Of a stretch of 51,045 nt of DNA, positions 64-49,052 are shown piece after piece. A program made the translations under genes and the position numbers. The notes under the pieces were generated by a model that saw only the letters and a list, made by a program, of their open reading frames with translations, was not told the DNA's origin and searched no databases. The stretch's first letter is position 1; the number at the start of each line of letters is the position of its first letter. Source of the stretch: Rubrivivax gelatinosus (GTDB lineage Bacteria; Pseudomonadota; Gammaproteobacteria; Burkholderiales; Burkholderiaceae_C); NCBI RefSeq assembly GCF_016583785.1, contig NZ_NRRU01000031.1, forward strand, positions 1-51,045, in the 5' to 3' direction.

Positions 64-2553
64 ATGAACGCCCCCGACAAGCACCTGCTCGATGCCCTGG
101 AACCCCAGGAAATTGCCACCGTCGCCCTGCTGGAGAAGTACGCCAAGGGTGAGGAACAGAACATCGCCCAGGTGCAGGCGCGTGTCGCCCGGGCACTCGC
201 TTCGATCGAGGCCGAGGACGCCCGTTCGGCGCGCGAAGCCGAGTTCCTGTGGGCGATGCAGCGCGGCTTCGTGCCCGCCGGCCGCATCATGTCGGCCGCC
301 GGCACCGACATCCAGGCGACGCTGATCAACTGCTTCGTGCAGCCGGTCGGCGACTCCATCACTGGCTACGAAGGCGACAAGCCCGGCATCTACACCGCCG
401 TCACCGAAGCGGCGGAAACGATGCGCCGTGGCGGCGGCGTCGGCTACGACTTCAGCCGCATCCGCCCGCAGGGCGCGCTGGTGACGCAGACGCATTCGCG
501 CGCCTCGGGCCCGGTGTCCTTCATGCGCGTCTTCGACGCCTCGTGCGAGACGGTCGAGTCGGCCGGTGCGCGCCGCGGCGCGCAGATGGGCGTGCTGCGC
601 TGCGACCACCCCGACATCGAGGCCTTCATCCACGCCAAGGACAAGGGCGAGCTGCGCAACTTCAACATCAGCGTCGGTGTCACCGACGCGCTGGTGCAGG
701 CGGTGATCGCCGACGGCGAGTTCGAACTCGTGCACGCTGCGCGTCCGCACGACGAACTGGTGGCTGCCGGCGCGCGCCAGCGCGAGGACGGCAAGTGGAT
801 CTACCGCAGCGTCAAGGCGCGCGAGGTCTGGGACCAGATCATGCGGTCGACCTACGACCACGCCGAGCCGGGCGTGCTGTTCATCGACCAGATGAACCGC
901 GAGAACAACCTGCACTACTGCGAGACGATCGAGGCCACCAACCCCTGCGCCGAGGAGCCGCTGCCCGACTACGGCTGCTGCTGCCTGGGCTCGGTCGACC
1001 TCACGCGCCACGTCGTCGGCGCCTTCTCGGATGACGCGCACTTCGACTTCGAAGGTTTCGCCGCGGTCGTGCGCGTGGGCGTGCGCATGCTCGACAACGT
1101 GCTCGACGTCACCTATTGGCCGCTGCCGCAGCAGCACGCCGAAGCCGCCGCCAAGCGCCGCGTCGGCCTGGGTTTCCTGGGCCTGGGCAGCTCGCTGGTG
1201 ATGCTGGGCATCCGCTACGACAGCGACGAAGGCCGCGCGCTCGCCGCCAAGATCGCCGAGACGATGCGCGACGCCTCCTACCTGGCCTCGGTCGACCTGG
1301 CCGTCGAACGCGGCGCCTTCCCCAAGCTGGAGAAGGCCAAGTACCTGAAGAGCGGTTTTGCCCAGCGCCTGCCGGAGGCGATCCGCAAGGCGATCCGCAA
1401 ACACGGCATCCGCAACAGCCATCTGCTGGCGATCGCGCCCACCGGCACGATCTCGCTGGCTTTTGCCGACAACGCCAGCAACGGCATCGAACCGCCGTTC
1501 TCCTGGACCTACAACCGCAAGAAGCGCGAAGCCGACGGCGGCCACCGCATCTTCGAGGTCGCTGACCGCGCCTGGCGCCTGTTCCGCCACCTCGGCGGCG
1601 ACGTGATGCAGTTGCCGCCGCAGTTCGTCACCGCGCTCGAGATGTCGGCCAACGACCACATGCGCATGCTCGAGGCGGTCCAGCCCTTCCTCGACACCTC
1701 GATCAGCAAGACCGTCAACGTTCCCGCCGACTACCCGTACGAGGACTTCCAGAACCTGTACCTGGACGCCTGGAAGGCGGGCCTGAAGGGCCTGGCGACC
1801 TATCGCCCGAACTCGGTGCTGGGCTCGGTGCTTTCGGTCAGCACGCCGGCCGCCGCGCCGGCTGCCCCGGCCTCGCCGCGCGAGGACGACCCGCTGACCA
1901 AACACGTCGGCCGCCCGGTGGGCCGCATCGCCAGCCTGACCGAGAAGGTCGAGATGTGGACGCAGGCGGGCAAACGGTCGATGTACGTCACCGTCGGCTT
2001 CCTGCCGGTGGACGGCGTCGTCGACGGCCAGAAGGTGACGATCGAGCGCCCGGTCGAGTTCCTGCTGCAAGGCGAGCAGGACCAGTGGCTGGACGGCGCG
2101 ATGCGCCTGCTGTCGCTGGCCGCCCGTTCGGGCGCGTCGATCGAGAAGGCGCTGGAGAACCTGCGCGAGATCGCCTGGACCAACGGCGCGGTGCGCAGCG
2201 GCTTCCTGACGCGCGGCGACGGCACGACGATTCCGCGTTTCCACGACTCCGAGGTCGCGGCGCTGGCCTATGCGGTGCAGCAGCTGCTGTATGCGCGTGG
2301 CTTCCTCACCGCCTCGGGCGCCCAGGTGCCGGTGCGTGAACTGGGGCGCCGCCACGCTGCTGGTGCGGCCCCGGCGGCGGCACCGGCAGCGGCTCCGGCG
2401 GCGACGCCGGAAGTCGAGGCCAAACCCGCCACCGGCATGCAGTTCGCCGCCGGCACCGGCGCCAAGTGCCCGGAATGCGGCGCGCACGACATGCACCACA
2501 TCGACGGCTGCACCAAGTGCACCAACTGCGGCCACATCGGCGCCTGCGGCTGA
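64..2553 (+). CDS. nrdJ: Adenosylcobalamin-dependent (class II) ribonucleoside-diphosphate reductase
   Basis: Reduces ribonucleotides to deoxyribonucleotides using an adenosylcobalamin radical, with or without oxygen. The 829-residue product has the reductase barrel signatures [18 protein letters not shown] (about residue 295) and [17 protein letters not shown] (about 458). It ends in a Cys-rich tail (CPECG...CTKCTNCG), the zinc-ribbon/redox tail of the long NrdJ type. An in-frame TTG lies two codons upstream at 58, but ATG 64 is the conventional choice; no strong ribosome site helps to decide. A low-complexity Ala/Pro linker (about 765-785) joins the catalytic part to the tail. No cobalamin riboswitch fits in the 63 bases seen upstream. 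A clear terminator follows. Identification is firm. Confidence 0.95.
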
Positions 2554-2577
2554 CGCCGCCTGCGCGCTGAACACGGG

Positions 2578-2600
2578 GCCCGCCGCAAGGCGGGCTTTTT
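2578..2600 (+). terminator. Rho-independent terminator of nrdJ
   Basis: A perfect 7-bp stem GCCCGCC / GGCGGGC with a GCAA tetraloop is followed by TTTTT, 24 bases after the nrdJ stop. It lies between two convergent genes, but only the plus strand has the T tract. Confidence 0.85.
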
Positions 2601-2604
2601 CGTT

Positions 2605-4161
2605 TCAGGCGTGCTGCGGCAGACGGAAACGCGAGACCACGCCGACGAGCTGCTGCGCCTGGATGCGCAGGCTCTCGGCCGCCGCCGCGCTCTCTTCCAC
2701 CAGCGCGGCGTTCTGCTGCGTCACGGTGTCCATCTGGCCGACGGCGTCACCGACCTGCGACACGCCGTCGCTCTGCTCGGCGCTGGCGGCGCTGATCGCC
2801 TCGACGACGCTGCTGACGCGGCCGATGGCCTGCACCAGTTCGTGCATCGTCTGGCCGACACGCTCGGCCTGCACCGCGCCCTGCTCGACGCGTTCGACGC
2901 TCTGGCCGATCAGCGTGCGGATCTGGCGCGCCGACTCGGCGCTGCGCTGCGCCAGCGTGCGCACCTCGGCGGCGACGACTGCGAAACCGCGGCCGGCCTC
3001 GCCGGCACGCGCCGACTCGACCGCAGCGTTGAGCGCCAGGATGTTGGTCTGGAACGCGATCGCGTCGATGACGCCGACGATCTCGGCCACCTGACGCGAC
3101 GCGGTGCTGATGCTCTTCATCGACGCCAGCATCTCGTCGACGGCGCTGCCGCCCTGGCTCGCGACCTTGGCTGCGCCATGCGCCAGCGTGTTCGCCTCGC
3201 GGGCGTTCTCGGCGTTCTGGCGCACGGTCGCACCGAGCTGCTCCATCGTCGCCGCGGTCTGCTGCAGCGCACCGGCCTGTTCCTCGGTGCGCTGGCTCAG
3301 GTCCTGGTTGCCGAGCGCGATCTGGGCGCTGGCCGTGGCCACGCTCTCGGCGTTGCCGCGCACGCCGCCGACGAGCTCGCGCAGGCTCTGCTGCATGCCG
3401 TCCAGCGCGCCCAGCAGCACGCCGAGCTCGTCGCGGCCACCGGCGGGCACCGCGCCCGCGAGGTCGCCGTCGGCCACACGTTCGGTCACTTGCAGCGCGG
3501 CGCGCAGCGGGCGCGTGACGCTCAGCGTGATCGCCCAGCCGAGTGCGCTGCCGCAGGCGATGGCCGCCAGCGCGACGATCATCATCACGATCTCGGCGCG
3601 CGAGATCGCGGCCGCGGTCGCCGCGGCACTGGCCTCCATGCGCTCGACCTCGTGTTCGACGAAGGCGTCCAGCGCCTTCAGGTAGGCCGCCTGCACCGGG
3701 CGCACGTCCTTCAGCAGCATGTCGCGCGCTTCGGCCGAGCGGTTGGCGACGGCCAGTTCCAGCGCCGCCTGCAGCTTGGGCTGGTAGGTGACGCGGCTGG
3801 CCTGCACCGCTTCGAGACGTTTGGCACTCTCGGCGTCGTGGTCGGCGGCCTGGAGCTTGTCCAGCAGGCCGGCGACCTGGCTCTCGCAGCCGCGGATGCG
3901 CTCGATCTCGGCCTGGATCTGTTTCGGGTCGTCCAGCAGCACGACGTTGCGCACGCCGCGCGCGACGACGTTGAGCTGGTCCTTGACGTCGCGCGCCATG
4001 CCCACGCTGTGCTGGCGCTGCTCGACCAGTTCCTGTACCTGTCCGCCGACACCCTGGAGCGCGCTGCGGCCGAACAGGGCCACCGCCGCCGTCGCCAACA
4101 TCACGAGCGCGAAGCCGATGCCCAGCTTCATGCCGATGCGCAGATCGTTCCAGCTCTTCAT
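2605..4161 (-). CDS. Methyl-accepting chemotaxis protein with four-helix-bundle-type sensor
   Basis: A 518-residue inner-membrane chemoreceptor. It has an N-terminal membrane segment (about 11-30), a periplasmic helical sensor of about 155 residues resembling the 4HB_MCP fold, a second membrane segment (about 190-210), a HAMP region, and a signalling coiled coil. The hairpin tip [19 protein letters not shown] is the CheA/CheW contact. The start ATG at 4161 ([14 protein letters not shown]) is preferred to an upstream in-frame start at 4269, because the upstream 36 residues are Arg/Pro-rich and the membrane segment follows the internal Met directly. The ligand cannot be told. No CheB/CheR-binding pentapeptide is visible at the C-terminus. 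Converges on nrdJ. Confidence 0.93.
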
Positions 4162-4695
4162 CCCGAACCCCCGACACCGCGGCGACCCCGCACCACGACA
4201 GGCGATCGCGGGCGCTGCTGACGGGCTATCGACCCGCCGGGGCCGGTGTGAAGGGACAAGGCGCGACATGGCGCACGCTTGTCAGTCCCCGTGAGGACAC
4301 CCGTCGAACGGAGCTTGCGCCGGCGTGAAGCACTGCACGCACCGTGGGCGGCACCGCCCTCGCCCTGCGCCGGGCGACACGCCGGCATTCAGCGCGCGCG
4401 AGCGGCGCCGCCCCTCGTCGTGCCGGATCCGGCTTGCGCCAGCGCAAGGCCCGCGCTGGGCGCGCGCCGGCTTTCTGTCCCCCGCACCACTGGGTATCCC
4501 TGTGGACAACCCGGGGGCGCGGCTCGCAAGTGCTTGCCACCCGGGGGTTTTCACTAGCTTGCTGCAGAAACAGGCAGCCTCGCGCAGGCCGTAGGATCGG
4601 TCCCACCCGCGGCCGCGAAATCGGCTGGCATCCGGGCTGCGGGCTGCGCGGCATCCTGTGTTCATGGCGGATGTCCGCCGCGACGAAAGGAAGTC
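4162..4695. other. Intergenic region, 534 bases, no convincing gene
   Basis: Separates the chemoreceptor (minus) from csbD (plus). Open frames here are Arg/Pro/Ala-rich and have no ribosome site, so I call none. It holds a perfect 14-base palindrome GGCGGA-TG-TCCGCC at 4666-4679, just upstream of the csbD ribosome site, and a single DnaA-box-like word (TTGTCCACA on the minus strand, 4501-4509). Promoters for both flanking genes must lie here, but none is clear. Confidence 0.6.
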
Positions 4696-4881
4696 ATGAA
4701 CAAGGACCAGGTCAAGGGAGCCGCCAAGGACATGGCCGGCAAGATCCAACGCAAGACGGGCGAAGCCATCGGCAGCGACGAGCAGCAGGCCAAGGGCCTG
4801 GCCAAGCAGGCCGAAGGCAAGACGCAGAAGAAGGCCGGCGACGTGCGCGAAGCCGTGCATGATCTGACGCGCAAGCCGTGA
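4696..4881 (+). CDS. CsbD-family small stress protein
   Basis: A 61-residue, Lys/Gln/Ala-rich hydrophilic protein (MNKDQVKGAAKDMAGKIQ...) with the CsbD pattern of two similar halves (GxAKxxxGKxQxKxGE and GLAKQAEGKTQKKAGD). CsbD-like proteins are abundant under stress in many bacteria; their molecular role is unknown. An AAGGAAG ribosome site stands just upstream. Its stop overlaps the GTG start of the following hydrolase, which suggests translational coupling. A perfect 14-base palindrome precedes the ribosome site. Confidence 0.9.
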   Translation: MNKDQVKGAAKDMAGKIQRKTGEAIGSDEQQAKGLAKQAEGKTQKKAGDVREAVHDLTRKP

Positions 4882-5759
4882 CGCCGGCGCCACCCGCCTG
4901 CCACGTCCAACCCGCAGCCACCCCGGCGGCTGCGATCTCGGTCCTGGAGGTCGGTGGCGTCACCGTTCACATCGAAGGCCAGGGCGAACAAACCCTGGTC
5001 TTCGTCCATGGCTGGCCCGACAGCCATCAGGTCTGGGATTCGCAGGTCGCGGCGCTGTCGGCGTCGTGGCGGTGTTTGCGTTTCACGCTGCCCGGCTTCG
5101 CCCCCGGCGACGACGGCCGGGCGCGTTCACTCGACGAGATCGTCGCCACGCTGCTGGCGGTCGTGGATGCGGCCAGCCCCGGGCAACCGGTGGTGCTGGT
5201 GCTGCACGACTGGGGCTGCTTCTTCGGTTACCGCTTCGCCGAACGCCATGGCGACCGTGTGCGGGCGATCGTCGCGATCGACATCGGCGGCGACGCCGGT
5301 TCACGCGCCAACCGTGCCGAGATGGGCTGGCGTGGCCAGGCGGGCGCGCTCGCCTACCAGCTGACGCTGGCGCTGGCCTGGCGCCTCGGCGGGCGCGCCG
5401 GCGACGCGGTCGCACGTGCGCTTGCCGGTGCGTTCCGGGCGCCGGCAGCCGGCGAGACCCGGGCCGCGATGGGCTGGCCGTACGCGGTGCAGTGGTTCGG
5501 CGCGGCCGGCGGCTTCGGCCGGCCGCGAGTGTTCCTGCCGCAGTGCCCGATGCTGTACGTCTACGGCACGCGCAAACCATTCATGTTCCATTCCCGGCGC
5601 TGGCTGGAGCGGCTGCAGGCCAGCCCGGGCTGCGGCGTGCTCGCGCTGGACGCGGGCCACTGGGTGATGATCCAGCAAGGCCCGGCCTTGAACGCCGCGA
5701 TCGCCGGCTGGCTAGACGCCCAGCGCCCTCAGCCGGCCGCCATGGCGGCGCGCGCATAA
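4878..5759 (+). CDS. Alpha/beta hydrolase, epoxide hydrolase/haloalkane dehalogenase-like
   Basis: A 293-residue alpha/beta-fold hydrolase. It shows the oxyanion motif HGWPDSHQVWD (about residue 45), the nucleophile elbow HDWG with Asp111, and the C-terminal catalytic His in DAGHWV (His261). An Asp nucleophile in an HDWG elbow is typical of epoxide hydrolases and haloalkane dehalogenases rather than serine esterases. The substrate cannot be assigned. The GTG start at 4878 overlaps the csbD stop (GTGA) and no independent ribosome site is visible, so coupling is likely. The first 25 residues are Ala/Pro-rich and may be poorly conserved. Converges with flgH, 18 bases apart. Confidence 0.85.
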   Translation: MTPAPPACHVQPAATPAAAISVLEVGGVTVHIEGQGEQTLVFVHGWPDSHQVWDSQVAALSASWRCLRFTLPGFAPGDDGRARSLDEIVATLLAVVDAASPGQPVVLVLHDWGCFFGYRFAERHGDRVRAIVAIDIGGDAGSRANRAEMGWRGQAGALAYQLTLALAWRLGGRAGDAVARALAGAFRAPAAGETRAAMGWPYAVQWFGAAGGFGRPRVFLPQCPMLYVYGTRKPFMFHSRRWLERLQASPGCGVLALDAGHWVMIQQGPALNAAIAGWLDAQRPQPAAMAARA

Positions 5760-45055: not shown

Positions 45056-45265
45056 ATGGGCTCCGTCAGCCAGCAGAACCAGAACCTGTACCGCGTCGTC
45101 GAGGTCGTGCGTGATGCCAACGGCCGCCTGACGAAGGTGTTCGCCGCCTACCACACCGACCTGGCCTACGTGCGCCGGCACGCCGCCTTCGTCGCCGGGT
45201 ATTCGGTGGCGGCCCGCATCTACATCTGCGACCACACGGGCAAGGTCATCCAGCGCTTCGTCTAG
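45056..45265 (+). CDS. Small hypothetical protein
   Basis: A 69-residue protein (MGSVSQQNQNLYRVVEVVRD...) with alternating strands and one helix: RVVEVVRDANGRLTKVFAAY, then AAFVAGYSVAARIYICDHTG. No clear ribosome site. The composition and pattern look protein-like, without repeats. Unknown family. Confidence 0.5.
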   Translation: MGSVSQQNQNLYRVVEVVRDANGRLTKVFAAYHTDLAYVRRHAAFVAGYSVAARIYICDHTGKVIQRFV

Positions 45266-45608
45266 CCGCCGTCCAGCGCCTGCAGCATCCGGGGTGTCTC
45301 GGGCCCGGAGGGTTGCAGCCGCGCCAGTTCGGCCAGCAGCGCGAACTCGGGGCGCCAGGCGCTGCTCCTGCTCCTGCTCCTGCACCGGCACCGGGTCGCC
45401 TCGCGTCACGCGGCACGCGCCGTACGACTCAGCGAGCACTCGCCAGGCGGCCTCGCCGTTGTGCAAGGCACGCAGATGTGGCGCGCGTCACAAGGCGGTG
45501 CGACCTCGCCCCCTATACTGGAAGTCAGTATTTTTGTGTGCTTGCAATAGAAGGCGCGCCCGATCCGGCAACCCAGTGCCGACAGCGCCCGATCACCGAG
45601 AAATCAAC
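45266..45608. other. Gap with a degenerate minus-strand gene and promoter of the borosin locus
   Basis: Left part (45265-45470) looks like a broken minus-strand gene. One frame gives LHNGEAAWRVLAESYGACRV, and another gives a natural-looking end (WRPEFALLAELARLQPSG...LQALDGG, stop), joined at a run of CAGGAG units. Right part (45500-45560) is AT-rich for this genome and carries a TATACT -10-like word and a perfect 6-5-6 inverted repeat. It is the likely promoter of the precursor gene. Confidence 0.45.
45515..45535 (+). promoter_or_regulatory. Inverted repeat followed by T run, upstream of the borosin precursor
   Basis: ATACTG-GAAGT-CAGTAT is a perfect 6-5-6 dyad that overlaps the -10-like TATACT at 45514-45519; TTTT follows. 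It may be an operator on the promoter of the precursor gene (start 45609) or a weak hairpin/attenuator. Confidence 0.45.
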
Positions 45609-45824
45609 ATGTCGAAGCTGCTGGACCTGATGCGAAAGCTCGGAAGCGATGCCGCGTTGAACAGCGATTACGAAACGGACCCCCAAGCGGTGATCCTCCG
45701 TTTCGGCCTGTCCGCGGAAGAAGGCGCCGCGCTGCTGGACAAGGACTACGAGGCGATCAAGCGCCTCACCGGGCTGCAGGACGGGCAGTTCTCCACGCAG
45801 CACTCCATCCAGGCCTACGACTAG
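45609..45824 (+). CDS. Split-borosin-like RiPP precursor peptide
   Basis: A 71-residue protein with a helical LigA-like body: MSKLLDLMRKLGSDAALNSD, then DPQAVILRFGLSAEEGAALL, then DKDYEAIKRLTG. A flexible tail QFSTQHSIQAYD follows. The length and the order 'Leu-Gly-x-Asp-Ala helix, DPxAVxxxxGLSxEE, short tail' match the borosin-binding domain and core of split borosin precursors such as SonA of Shewanella oneidensis. In that system a separate SAM methyltransferase N-methylates backbone amides in the C-terminal core. The gene for such a methyltransferase starts 28 bases downstream. The core is expected in the last 12-15 residues. No protease or export gene is adjacent. Confidence 0.78.
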   Translation: MSKLLDLMRKLGSDAALNSDYETDPQAVILRFGLSAEEGAALLDKDYEAIKRLTGLQDGQFSTQHSIQAYD

Positions 45825-45852
45825 CGGGAGGTCTCGGGCCCCGTACGCCGGC

Positions 45853-48387
45853 ATGCGCCGATACAGCTCCATCGCTGCACTGCTGCTGGCGCTCGCCGCC
45901 GGACCGGTCTTTGCTGATCAGTCGCTGGAATCGCAGGTGGCTGAGATCGAGCGGCTCGGCATCTCCGCGAACTGGCGCGACGTCAACGCGAAGATCCAGA
46001 CGCTGTCCCCGCAACTCGGGTCACTGAGCAGGGAACAGCGACAGCGCGTGGAGTACGTGCGCCTGCGCATGCTGGCGCTGTCGGGCGACATGGCCGGCGC
46101 GGCGTCCGGCCTCGGCGCGTTGTTGCAAGAGCCGCTCGCCGCGGACCTGCGCATGCGCGTTTACGGCACGGCCATCAATGTCGCCGCGAACGCAGAGCAA
46201 TGGTCGCAGGCATTCACCTGGCTCGGCGAGGCTCTTGCCTACCTGGGCGAAGAGCCGCAACAGTCGGTGCGTCTGCTGGGCATCGCCAGCTACCTGCACA
46301 ACCTGGTCGGGGAAACCGGGAAGGCGCGTGAACTTGCGCTGCGCGAGCTTGCCCTGGCCGACAAGGGCACCGATGAACGCGCCAAATGCCTCGCCCTGAG
46401 CCACCTGGCGACGGCGGACGCGAGTTCCGGCCGGATCAACGAGTCCGAGCGTTGGCGCTGGCGCCAGATCGATGCCTGCGTTCGTGCCGGCGACCTGATC
46501 TTTGCCGCCGACGGAAAGTGGGGTGTCACGAAGATGCTGGCCGCGCAGGGTCGCTACGACCAGGCCCTGCACTGGGCGGATCAGGCGCTGGCGGGCTACG
46601 AAGAGGCCGGGTATGCCCCAGGCACCTGGGGGGTGCGGCTGGCGCTCGCCGGCATTCTGATCGATTCGGGTCGCGACCTTGATCGCGCCGGCCACCTGCT
46701 GGCCGACGCCTTGCGCTACTACCGCGATCAGAAAACGCCAGACATGATCGCGGAGACCGAACAACTCCTGGCGCGCCTTGCCGAGAAGCGCGGCGACCCT
46801 GCCGAAGCGTTGGCGCACTACAAGCGGGCGACCGTGGCAACGGCGTCAGCCGAGAACGATGCCCGCGAGCGTCGTTTGGCGTATCTGCAGGTGCAGTTCG
46901 ACATCCGGCTGAAGGAGCAGCAGATCGCGCTGCTGGAAGCGGAGAAGGAAGTGGCCGCGCTGCAGGTCACCGTGGAGCAGCGCCGGCAGTGGCTGCTGTG
47001 GGCAGGCGTGGGCGGGCTGGCGCTGGTCTCGATGCTGCTGACGATTCTGCTGCGGCGTGCGTTCATCGAGCGCCAGCGCTACCGCTGGCAGTCCGAGCAC
47101 GACGGCCTGACCCGGCTCTACAACTACCAGCAGGTGCGCAAGCTCGGCGAGGCGGCGTTCGCTGCGGCACGCCGGCGTGGGCAGCCGTTCACCGCGATCG
47201 TCGCCGACGTCGACCGCTTCAAGGGCGTCAACGACCACTTCGGGCACGCCGCCGGCGACGCGGCGCTTCGCAACCTGGGCGTGTGGATCGCCGAAGTGGT
47301 GGGCGAGCGCGGCATCGCCGGGCGCAGCGGCGGCGACGAGTTCACGATCCTGCTCCAGGAAGACGCGGCGCAGGCCGAGGCGCTGCTGCAGCGGCTGCGC
47401 GAGCGCATCGAGCCGATGGAGGTGTTCGGCAAGACCGTGCACTTCAGCATCAGCTCGGGGCTCTGCGTGGCCAACGACCAGGTGAGCACGCTGGAGCAGC
47501 TGGTTCACGAGGCCGACCAGGCGCTGTATCGCGCCAAGCACGGCGGGCGCAACCGCGTGGTGCGTGCCGGCAGCGAGGAGCCGGGCACCGGCAGGCGGGC
47601 AGGCCTGGTGGTCGTGGGCAGCGGGATCGATTTCGGCCGCCACGCCAGCGAGCGCAGCCTGTCCGAGATCCGCGAAGCCGAGGTGGTGTTCTGCCTGGTG
47701 AATCCGATCGCCCTGGCGATGATCAGCAGTTTGCGGCCGGATGCGATCAACCTCGGCTTGCACTACGCGCCCGGCAAGGACAGGCGCGAGACCTACCGCG
47801 AGATCGACGCCCGGATCATGGCCGAGGTGCGTGCCGGCAAGCGCGTGTGCGCCGTGTTCTATGGCCACCCGGGCGTGTTTGCCGACGTGCCGCATGTGGT
47901 GGTGCGCAAGGCTCGTGCCGAAGGCATTCCGGCGCGCATGGAGCCAGGCATCTCGGCCGAGGCCTGCCTGTACGCCGACCTCGGGCTGGACCCGGGCCGG
48001 CGTGGCGTGCAGTCGATGGAGGCCACCCAGTTTCTGGTCTACGACCGCCAGCTCGACCGTGCCGGCCTGGTGCTGCTATGGCAGGTGGCACTGGCCGGCG
48101 ACCTGAGCTGCACGCGTTTCCACGCCGAGCGCGAAGGGCTGCAGGCGCTGGTGGACAAGCTGCAGTGCTGGTATCCCCCGGAGCACGAAGTCATCCTGTA
48201 CGAGGCGGCGTGGCTGCCGATCGAGCAGCCGCGCGTCGAGCGCCTGGCCTTGCGCGACCTGCCCGAGGCACGTTATGCCGAGTACACGACGCTGGTGATT
48301 CCGCCTCTGGGCCGGCTCGAGCCGGCCGCGGCGGCTCGATCGCCGCAGCGGCAGCCCGAGGCGGACAGTCCCGCCGAGGCCTGCTGA
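45853..48387 (+). CDS. Sensor/GGDEF protein fused to a borosin-type peptide N-methyltransferase
   Basis: An 844-residue single open frame. Order: signal peptide (SIAALLLALAAGPVFAD), periplasmic TPR-like helices (about 25-340), coiled coil (about 340-378), membrane segment (about 379-400), and GGDEF domain (about 412-575). That domain has EHDGLTRLYN, an intact GGDEF at 493-497 and no RxxD inhibitory site, as the aligned Asp is Ala. A SAM methyltransferase of the tetrapyrrole-methylase fold follows (584-830). It begins GLVVVGSGIDFGRHASER and contains FYGHPGVFADVPHVV, PGISAEACLYADLGLDPGR and LLWQVALAGD. Tyr638, Arg644, Tyr648 and Tyr670 have the same spacing as the OphMA active-site residues Tyr66, Arg72, Tyr76 and Tyr98. 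It acts on the preceding precursor by inference. No ribosome site is close to ATG 45853. Confidence 0.88.
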   Translation: MRRYSSIAALLLALAAGPVFADQSLESQVAEIERLGISANWRDVNAKIQTLSPQLGSLSREQRQRVEYVRLRMLALSGDMAGAASGLGALLQEPLAADLRMRVYGTAINVAANAEQWSQAFTWLGEALAYLGEEPQQSVRLLGIASYLHNLVGETGKARELALRELALADKGTDERAKCLALSHLATADASSGRINESERWRWRQIDACVRAGDLIFAADGKWGVTKMLAAQGRYDQALHWADQALAGYEEAGYAPGTWGVRLALAGILIDSGRDLDRAGHLLADALRYYRDQKTPDMIAETEQLLARLAEKRGDPAEALAHYKRATVATASAENDARERRLAYLQVQFDIRLKEQQIALLEAEKEVAALQVTVEQRRQWLLWAGVGGLALVSMLLTILLRRAFIERQRYRWQSEHDGLTRLYNYQQVRKLGEAAFAAARRRGQPFTAIVADVDRFKGVNDHFGHAAGDAALRNLGVWIAEVVGERGIAGRSGGDEFTILLQEDAAQAEALLQRLRERIEPMEVFGKTVHFSISSGLCVANDQVSTLEQLVHEADQALYRAKHGGRNRVVRAGSEEPGTGRRAGLVVVGSGIDFGRHASERSLSEIREAEVVFCLVNPIALAMISSLRPDAINLGLHYAPGKDRRETYREIDARIMAEVRAGKRVCAVFYGHPGVFADVPHVVVRKARAEGIPARMEPGISAEACLYADLGLDPGRRGVQSMEATQFLVYDRQLDRAGLVLLWQVALAGDLSCTRFHAEREGLQALVDKLQCWYPPEHEVILYEAAWLPIEQPRVERLALRDLPEARYAEYTTLVIPPLGRLEPAAAARSPQRQPEADSPAEAC

Positions 48388-48430
48388 AGGCGCGCGGCCG
48401 GCGACCGCGGCCGTGCCGCCCCGCCCGCGT

Positions 48431-48512
48431 TCCTTGTCGCCGAGCTGCCTGAAGCGCCTGCCGACGAACAAGCTGAAGATCGACCCGCGCCTTCATCACC
48501 GACGTCGTGCAC
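48431..48512 (+). pseudogene. Remnant of an EAL (c-di-GMP phosphodiesterase) domain
   Basis: Bases 48431-48490 read SLSPSCLKRLPTNKLKIDPR. After a one-base frame change they continue as FITDVV. EAL domains carry SSLSYLKRLPVDxLKIDRSFVxD at this point. Nothing else of the domain is left and there is no start. It lies 44 bases after the GGDEF-methyltransferase gene on the same strand. Confidence 0.7.
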
Positions 48513-48546
48513 GGCGGCCTGAACGGCCGGCGGCAGCACCGAAGTG

Positions 48547-48574
48547 AAAACGCCCCGCCGCAAGCGGCGAGGCG
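48547..48574 (-). terminator. Rho-independent terminator for the minus-strand exported protein
   Basis: Minus strand: an 11-bp stem CGCCTCGCCGC / GCGGCGGGGCG with one U-G wobble and a 2-base loop, then TTTT. It lies about 110 bases after the stop at 48687. Confidence 0.6.
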
Positions 48575-48686
48575 TGAAGTTGGCATCGGCTATGCCGGGT
48601 TACGGGTTCCCGTGTGTCGCCCAGTGTTGCGGCCGGTTTCGCACGCCGATGCCGCCATCTTGCCGGCGCCGTGTGTCGGCGATGTG

Positions 48687-49052
48687 TCAGCGTGCGGGTA
48701 GCCAGCGGCCCTGCTCGCGCAGCAGCACGGTGTCGCCGCGCGTGACGACGAGTTCACCCGCCTCGAACACGCGGTAGACGGTGTCGCCGTTGTGGAACTC
48801 CCAGCCGAGGAAGCGGCAGGGCGTGACGCCATCGGCGCACTGGGTATGCAGCGCCCGGCCGTCGAGCCGGATGCTGCGCCCGCTGCGGCGGCTGCGGCCG
48901 ACGTATTCGACGTCGGCACAGGCCACCTCGCCTTCGACGCAGCGCGGCTCGACGCTCACGCGGTAGCCGGGCGTGAGCAGCGTCTGTGCGGGCACGCCGA
49001 CGACAGCGCCTGCGAGCGCGGCGGCGGCAAGGAGGTGGCAGAGCGCTTTCAT
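48687..49052 (-). CDS. Small exported hypothetical protein
   Basis: A 121-residue protein with a signal peptide (HLLAAAALAGAVVGVPAQT). The mature part has four Cys in pairs (RCVEGEVACADVEYVGRSRR, TQCADGVTPCRFLGW) and strand-rich stretches (GDTVYRVFEAGELVVTRGD), suggesting a disulphide-stabilised periplasmic domain. No known family. Start ATG 49052 follows AAGGAGG closely enough to be used. Confidence 0.75.
   Translation of the reverse strand: MKALCHLLAAAALAGAVVGVPAQTLLTPGYRVSVEPRCVEGEVACADVEYVGRSRRSGRSIRLDGRALHTQCADGVTPCRFLGWEFHNGDTVYRVFEAGELVVTRGDTVLLREQGRWLPAR

Follow-up and report, generated by a model that had tools for sequence, protein, structure and literature searches.

The stretch of DNA considered here, the window, covers 51,045 nt of Rubrivivax gelatinosus (assembly GCF_016583785.1, contig NZ_NRRU01000031.1, positions 1 to 51,045) and contains a two-gene cassette on the plus strand, in which a borosin-type precursor of 71 residues (45609..45824) is followed after 28 bases by a fusion protein of 844 residues (45853..48387). 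The interesting result of the analysis is the linkage of the borosin clade of the window to membrane receptors. The open reading frame (ORF) of the fusion starts with ATG and runs for 844 codons without an internal stop, and the frame, the Pfam matches and the homologues agree on the order of parts that a first-pass annotation had read from the letters, namely a tetratricopeptide repeat (TPR)-type region, a membrane helix, an intact GGDEF domain and a methyltransferase. A hydrophobic N-terminal segment (residues ~1-22, 45853..45918), predicted to be a signal peptide or a first membrane helix, precedes a helical superhelix of TPR type, a predicted sensor (residues ~25-340, 45925..46872), which in the AlphaFold model consists of helix pairs in succession and in Pfam is matched by TPR families always under the cut-off. 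A membrane helix is predicted at residues ~377-405 (46981..47067), so that, from the N-terminal segment and this one helix, the TPR region would lie in the periplasm. Hydropathy windows above 1.6 begin at residue 7, at 380-387 and at 609-611, the last being located within the methyltransferase domain. The GGDEF domain (residues 415-568, 47095..47556; Pfam E 2.2e-35), predicted to produce the messenger c-di-GMP, lacks an RxxD I-site and retains its signature at residues 493-497 (47329..47343). Residues 493, 494, 496 and 497 are identical in 122/122 homologues, and at position 495 there is D in 121 of them and E in one. The predicted SonM-like alpha-N-methyltransferase domain occupies residues 584-824 (47602..48324). 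The AlphaFold model of the whole fusion reached a mean predicted local distance difference test (pLDDT) of 80.4 and a predicted template modelling score (pTM) of 0.48, and Foldseek aligned it to SonM with E 5.1e-19, a TM score by target of 0.45 and a root-mean-square deviation (rmsd) of 14; because of the pTM and of stretches with pLDDT below 50 between residues 699 and 756, the domain arrangement is left uninterpreted.

The sequence places the methyltransferase domain in the borosin family, as had been claimed. Among PDB sequences SonM leads with E 5.6e-69, followed by OphMA at ~1e-40, and in an alignment of diverse members the domain shares 48% identity with SonM. Tyr638, Arg644, Tyr648 and Tyr670 (span 47764..47862) stand where the first-pass annotation had put them and are identical in 122/122 aligned homologues, including both copies of this genome, and the catalytic Tyr/Arg/Tyr/Tyr set is likewise kept in 14/14 rows of the diverse alignment, SonM included. 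The SonM equivalents are Y58, R67, Y71 and Y93, with three extra residues between the first two compared with the fusion. In SonM, the exchanges Y58F, R67K and Y71F reduced kcat 15-, 43- and 84-fold, respectively, and Y93F 2-fold (PMC8429565). That the protein might instead be a siroheme or corrin methylase, or a product of misassembly, deserves practically no credence: the Pfam match is indeed to the general TP_methylase family (residues 585-789, E 3.6e-19), yet corrin and siroheme methylases follow SonM and OphMA at E 1.6e-4 or worse, which rules out a tetrapyrrole methylase, and a borosin binding domain (BBD) precursor adjoins the gene. An artefact of assembly or frame, such as a false joining of GGDEF and methyltransferase, is ruled out by a second 844-residue copy in the same genome and by the homologues, of which 120/120 listed rows carry both Pfam domains. 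The fusion is thus a borosin but not of plain type IV, since its methyltransferase does not stand alone but forms the C-terminal end of a TPR-GGDEF protein.

The precursor, whose presence directly upstream had been noticed as well, begins with ATG and is predicted from sequence and model to be SonA-like, with a BBD and a short tail. SonA was found among PDB sequences at E 1.1e-6 across residues 1-57. The AlphaFold model (pLDDT 75.9) shows five predicted helices (residues 3-13, 15-23, 25-32, 36-43 and 47-54) in the BBD (residues 1-55, 45609..45773) and is disordered from residue 58 onward. SonA also leads the PDB matches of this model in Foldseek, the best reaching a TM score by target of 0.89 and an rmsd of 1.2 over 53 columns, with an E value of 0.027, none being below 0.001 as the chain is short. 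The tail (residues 56-71, 45774..45821; LQDGQFSTQHSIQAYD) holds the predicted methylated core, and in 43 aligned fused-type precursors it is conserved at Y70 (98%), N64 (88%) and A69 (88%). SonA itself is methylated at Leu63 and Ile65 (PMC11285071).

The genome holds the cassette twice, the second copy, with its own precursor and an 844-residue fusion, being located on another contig (C70, locus L012). A blastn comparison of 13 kb aligned the two copies across window positions 45607-48400 and nothing outside, which shows that the cassette was duplicated as a unit. The copies are 88% identical in methyltransferase and GGDEF domain and 72% in the N-terminal part, and the ratio of nonsynonymous to synonymous substitution (dN/dS) is 0.11 for the methyltransferase and for the BBD, 0.26 for the GGDEF domain and 0.41 for the TPR region. 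The 16-residue tail gave 0.56, a value based on small numbers, and for some small parts of the copies the ratio comes close to 1: 1.09 for the membrane helix, 0.81 for the linker and 1.25 for the C-terminal tail. With the TPR region as query, this genome yielded matches at its two cassettes and nowhere else, and in ten other genomes 16 places were found in nine of them, 11 of these places being borosin loci.

Around the window copy, no Rfam family reached the gathering threshold within the window, a sigma-70 promoter scan of 45240-48700 returned none, terminator-like sites occurred at chance level, and the plasmid collection gave no match in near mode. An 87-base stretch downstream (48433-48519) matches, at 86%, the end of a GGDEF-EAL gene of Rubrivivax benzoatilyticus (L013, matching positions 4468-4553 inside ORF 2522-4774); in that species the gene adjoins the fusion downstream, and nothing of it beyond this remnant was found in the window.

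According to the first-pass annotation no enzyme of this architecture had been described, a claim that did not hold. The methyltransferase part, used as a database query, returned 310 proteins, and all 120 that were listed, the window's own included, combine GGDEF and TP_methylase, so that at least 120 GGDEF-borosin fusions exist; those that are named at the source are nearly always called diguanylate cyclase (Rubrivivax, Luteimonas, Pseudoxanthomonas and others). The fused architecture is also seen in 44 loci of a set made up of the best 80 of 168 confirmed borosin methyltransferase loci, and the legend of figure 1 in a 2024 publication, the one paper found to mention both borosins and GGDEF, defines GGDEF among the domains of borosin architectures (PMC11395268). 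Relatives are scattered in the window's own group, where 4/100 genomes have a match; the four include a weak one (E 7e-7) and the present genome. Another tally gave 10/369 genomes, again with this one among them, and a wider model matched 144/299 genomes of the order of genome G465. In a tree of 132 methyltransferases, 41 fused rows lie on one side of a single branch and 90 split rows on the other, the support for this branch being given as 75 to 90 and not starred. The nearest rows to the window are two Rubrivivax species, followed by Luteimonas, and the cassette may have been transferred into the Rubrivivax line. The fusion itself needs little change, since in 11 measured loci with separate genes the receptor stops 13-60 bases ahead of the methyltransferase domain.

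Beyond the fusions, a receptor accompanies the methyltransferase in nearly all loci examined. Of the 80 loci of the set, 78 have a GGDEF or TPR-kinase protein: 44 are fused, 15 have a GGDEF gene before the methyltransferase, 17 have the order methyltransferase, precursor, GGDEF gene, one (L070) has a TPR-histidine kinase and one (L084) is cut by the contig. The two others are L054, at a contig end, and L086. By a TPR profile that was iterated on these 80 loci and L109-L117 themselves, a TPR receptor is fused to the methyltransferase, or lies on the same strand at most 1.5 kb away, in 77/80 loci (exceptions L014, which is cut, L054 and L086) and in 57 of 60 sampled loci from 54 genera (exceptions L218 at a contig end, L230 with the receptor on the other strand and L231 with no receptor in reach). 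These 60 loci were hand-picked from the matches listed (144/299 and 70/295 genomes of two orders), mostly as the best listed match of each genus, with six being second loci of a genus; 6/40 and 2/22 genera with a match are left out, and sample and 80-locus set share several genomes and are not independent. Such linkage is not expected by chance, since the 41 GGDEF matches of this genome are spread over 5.35 Mb, with an average of about 130 kb for each. When ORFs of at least 110 residues, at most 6 kb to each side and not overlapping the cassette, were clustered over the 80 loci, no other gene family was common to more than 4/43 fused loci.

The precursor takes part in this linkage as well. A precursor ORF lies upstream of 42/44 fused ORFs, the other two beginning at contig ends, and the precursor model matched 52/60 sample loci. 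Of 60 BBD ORFs in the sample, 55 have a receptor as the next feature, four another precursor and one nothing, and in the 55 directly adjoining cases the stop of the precursor is 100-396 bases from the TPR start. In the loci of six distant methyltransferases (L112-L117, 26-43% identity to SonM), TPR or BBD was found by these models in 0/6. Divergent precursors were perhaps overlooked by the model, as in L112 and L114 small ORFs with a BBD-like start were seen by eye immediately ahead of the methyltransferase. Covariation beyond that of other parts was found between BBD and methyltransferase (partial r 0.38, 0/300 shuffles as high) and, more weakly, between BBD and TPR region (partial r 0.19, 6/300 shuffles).

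Single loci illustrate how the parts are combined. In L223, a methyltransferase with 92.7% identity to SonM, for which reason the host is presumed to be a Shewanella, is followed by a SonA-like precursor of 71 residues and then by a GGDEF receptor of 596 residues with TPR matches just under the Pfam cut-off. In L197 and L199, two or three precursor-receptor pairs accompany a single methyltransferase; in L199 (3906-15817), one methyltransferase, three precursors and five TPR-GGDEF genes stand in a row. The output of the TPR receptor is a histidine kinase in L070, L109, L111, L226 and L228, L109 having a TPR-GGDEF gene too. Kinases were first spotted by a motif pattern or as an ORF without GGDEF, and in these five loci they were checked with Pfam. 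L070 further contains an ORF (1929-2467) that joins a BBD and a response-regulator receiver in one frame, beside a precursor, a TPR-histidine kinase-receiver protein and the methyltransferase. Among eight ORFs scanned with Pfam, six were GGDEF proteins with TPR over the cut-off, one was a kinase-receiver protein with TPR below it and one a receiver ORF.

On these grounds the two-gene cassette is, on balance, probably a signalling module: the level of c-di-GMP would be set jointly by backbone methylation of the peptide and by an input from the periplasm. A part in cell signalling is likely for the modified peptide because the genes for precursor, receptor and enzyme are co-located in nearly all close relatives examined. 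The first-pass annotation had coupled methylation to a membrane sensor and c-di-GMP; this tie gains strong genomic support from receptors of the same family that accompany the enzyme as separate neighbours in many genera. The signal may control methylation, or the methylated peptide the receptor; the direction of control in the following scheme is inferred. The precursor is predicted, from sequence and fold, to consist of a BBD and a short tail, and the methyltransferase to carry the borosin catalytic set. By analogy to SonM-SonA, the methyltransferase domain would bind the BBD on the inner side of the membrane and alpha-N-methylate the tail, probably near residues 63-67. The presumably periplasmic TPR-type region may, via a long helix and the membrane helix, alter the pairing of GGDEF domains. 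An inhibitory RxxD I-site is common, though not universal, in diguanylate cyclases, and its absence here would remove product feedback. The precursor, loaded or methylated, could then regulate the receptor. This role is suggested by gene order: nothing in the layout is as constant as the placement of the precursor beside the receptor, with the methyltransferase fused, downstream or upstream. The precursor would dock from within the cytoplasm and would not serve the TPR region as a ligand.

Three other roles for the precursor or the GGDEF domain have to be weighed against this signalling module. The precursor could be the source of an exported natural product, with the TPR-GGDEF part as a regulator or self-sensor and a signal or the c-di-GMP state timing the methylation of the peptide. 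Borosins are known as peptide natural products (PMC8429565; PMC11285071), and a fusion of enzyme and sensor would permit direct control; the proposal nevertheless appears rather unlikely, since the neighbour clustering linked no dedicated peptidase or exporter to the fused loci, and the tail is conserved across the 43 fused-type precursors. No pepsin-like peptidase (PF00026) was detected in this genome, which is uninformative as the control genomes also gave none. In favour of a natural product, work by Lee in 2024 reportedly identified a borosin precursor as substrate of a pepsin-like peptidase in Shewanella. Improbable to a greater degree is an autoinducer-type ligand, for which the methylated tail would cross the membrane and bind to the TPR superhelix of the neighbouring receptor: the precursor does lie next to the receptor, but the partial distance correlation between tail and TPR region, at -0.02 with 182/300 shuffles as high, lends it no support. 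Least probable among the three is that the GGDEF domain merely senses GTP or c-di-GMP and gates methylation, making no messenger. The RxxD I-site is indeed absent from all 44 fused ORFs that have the GGDEF motif, compared with its presence in 16/17 methyltransferase-first loci (and in 5/20 GGDEF ORFs of loci with the order BBD, GGDEF, methyltransferase). However, GG[DE]EF is intact in 44/45 fused ORFs, the exception L014 being cut by a contig end, and in 71/72 TPR-GGDEF ORFs of the 60-locus sample, as expected of active cyclases, and the dN/dS of the GGDEF domain between the two copies of this genome is 0.26.

Several observations count against the signalling module. Linkage does not prove function, and the module is proposed from predicted activities. 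The lack of excess covariation between tail and TPR region is one such point. Pfam supports GGDEF over the cut-off in 10/10 separate receptors of the sample and a TPR model in 1/10 (L224), no TPR model matches the receptors of L188 and L230 at E 0.01, and two of seven receptors from methyltransferase-first or similar loci reach the TPR cut-off; since Pfam backs GGDEF or kinase better than TPR, it is the family profile that supports the term TPR in distant receptors. The genome of L223 (G1018) has no match to the TPR region of the window. The precursor model missed 8/60 sample loci, and 55 of the 76 receptor ORFs in the sample have a BBD directly before them. L086 and L231 remain without a receptor within reach, the receptor of L230 is on the other strand, and L054 and L218 are contig ends. 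Of seven loci chosen for BBD matches away from the main match, L277 alone fits the layout with a TPR receptor: L273-L276 and L279 combine BBD and methyltransferase without a TPR receptor and with a GGDEF gene 1.4-1.6 kb upstream, and L278 has neither TPR receptor nor upstream GGDEF gene. The two upstream GGDEF genes that were scanned (L273, L275) are of 7TMR-DISM type.

Some of these loci have features of their own. L086 (5561-7366, Luteibacter) holds a methyltransferase and three BBD precursors, with no receptor found at the locus. Another borosin group (L272 653-3058 on the minus strand, L273, L275) is represented by a 7TMR-DISM-GGDEF gene (L273, L275), a flavin amine oxidase (L272), a BBD precursor and a methyltransferase; in L272, which lies inside L273, the precursor is immediately preceded by the gene for the amine oxidase. 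In L278, an ORF of 545 residues on the minus strand (3829-5463), located after a BBD gene, has two tandem borosin methyltransferase domains, and the borosin methyltransferase match of L178 (G866:C3) contains one in-frame TAA.

What is new in this analysis is that the fusion constitutes one state of a general linkage to receptors, a linkage that may already stand in the literature. A wider proposal, which we put forward tentatively and with less confidence than the module itself, is that SonM-type borosins belong to general bacterial signal transduction and not mainly to natural-product pathways: an N-methylated BBD protein would partner a membrane receptor with exchangeable output, either diguanylate cyclase or histidine kinase, and the window fusion would represent receptor and enzyme merged. 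If the precursor does partner a receptor of c-di-GMP or phosphorelay signalling, N-methylation of the backbone would serve to regulate proteins in addition to being a route to drug-like peptides. The available text of the study on SonM-SonA does not contain the words physiological, phenotype or biological role, and does not state a role of split borosins in bacteria (PMC8429565). The fusion, together with the receptor gene beside a SonM-SonA-like pair, makes the signalling idea directly testable in a tractable laboratory strain.

Among known systems, the type IV split borosin SonM-SonA of Shewanella oneidensis (PMC8429565) is most similar in its methyltransferase, catalytic residues, separate 71-residue BBD precursor and predicted precursor fold. 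It differs in that the methyltransferase of the window is fused to the TPR-GGDEF receptor, whereas L223 has the receptor as a separate gene after the precursor. The borosin type scheme with GGDEF among its domains (PMC11395268, legend of figure 1) corresponds to the window in this respect. RcbB, a TPR-GGDEF cyclase of Vibrio vulnificus, is similar by description, as its TPR region represses the GGDEF domain and a partner protein de-represses it (PMC12282931); RcbB is, however, predicted to be cytoplasmic, its partner RcbA is a TPR protein, and the word methyltransferase is absent from the main text of that study (PMC12282931). The fungal borosin OphMA has a homologous methyltransferase with the residue spacing that the first-pass annotation ascribed to it. 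OphMA carries its core peptide on the enzyme itself, whereas in the window the core is encoded separately and the enzyme is fused to the receptor.

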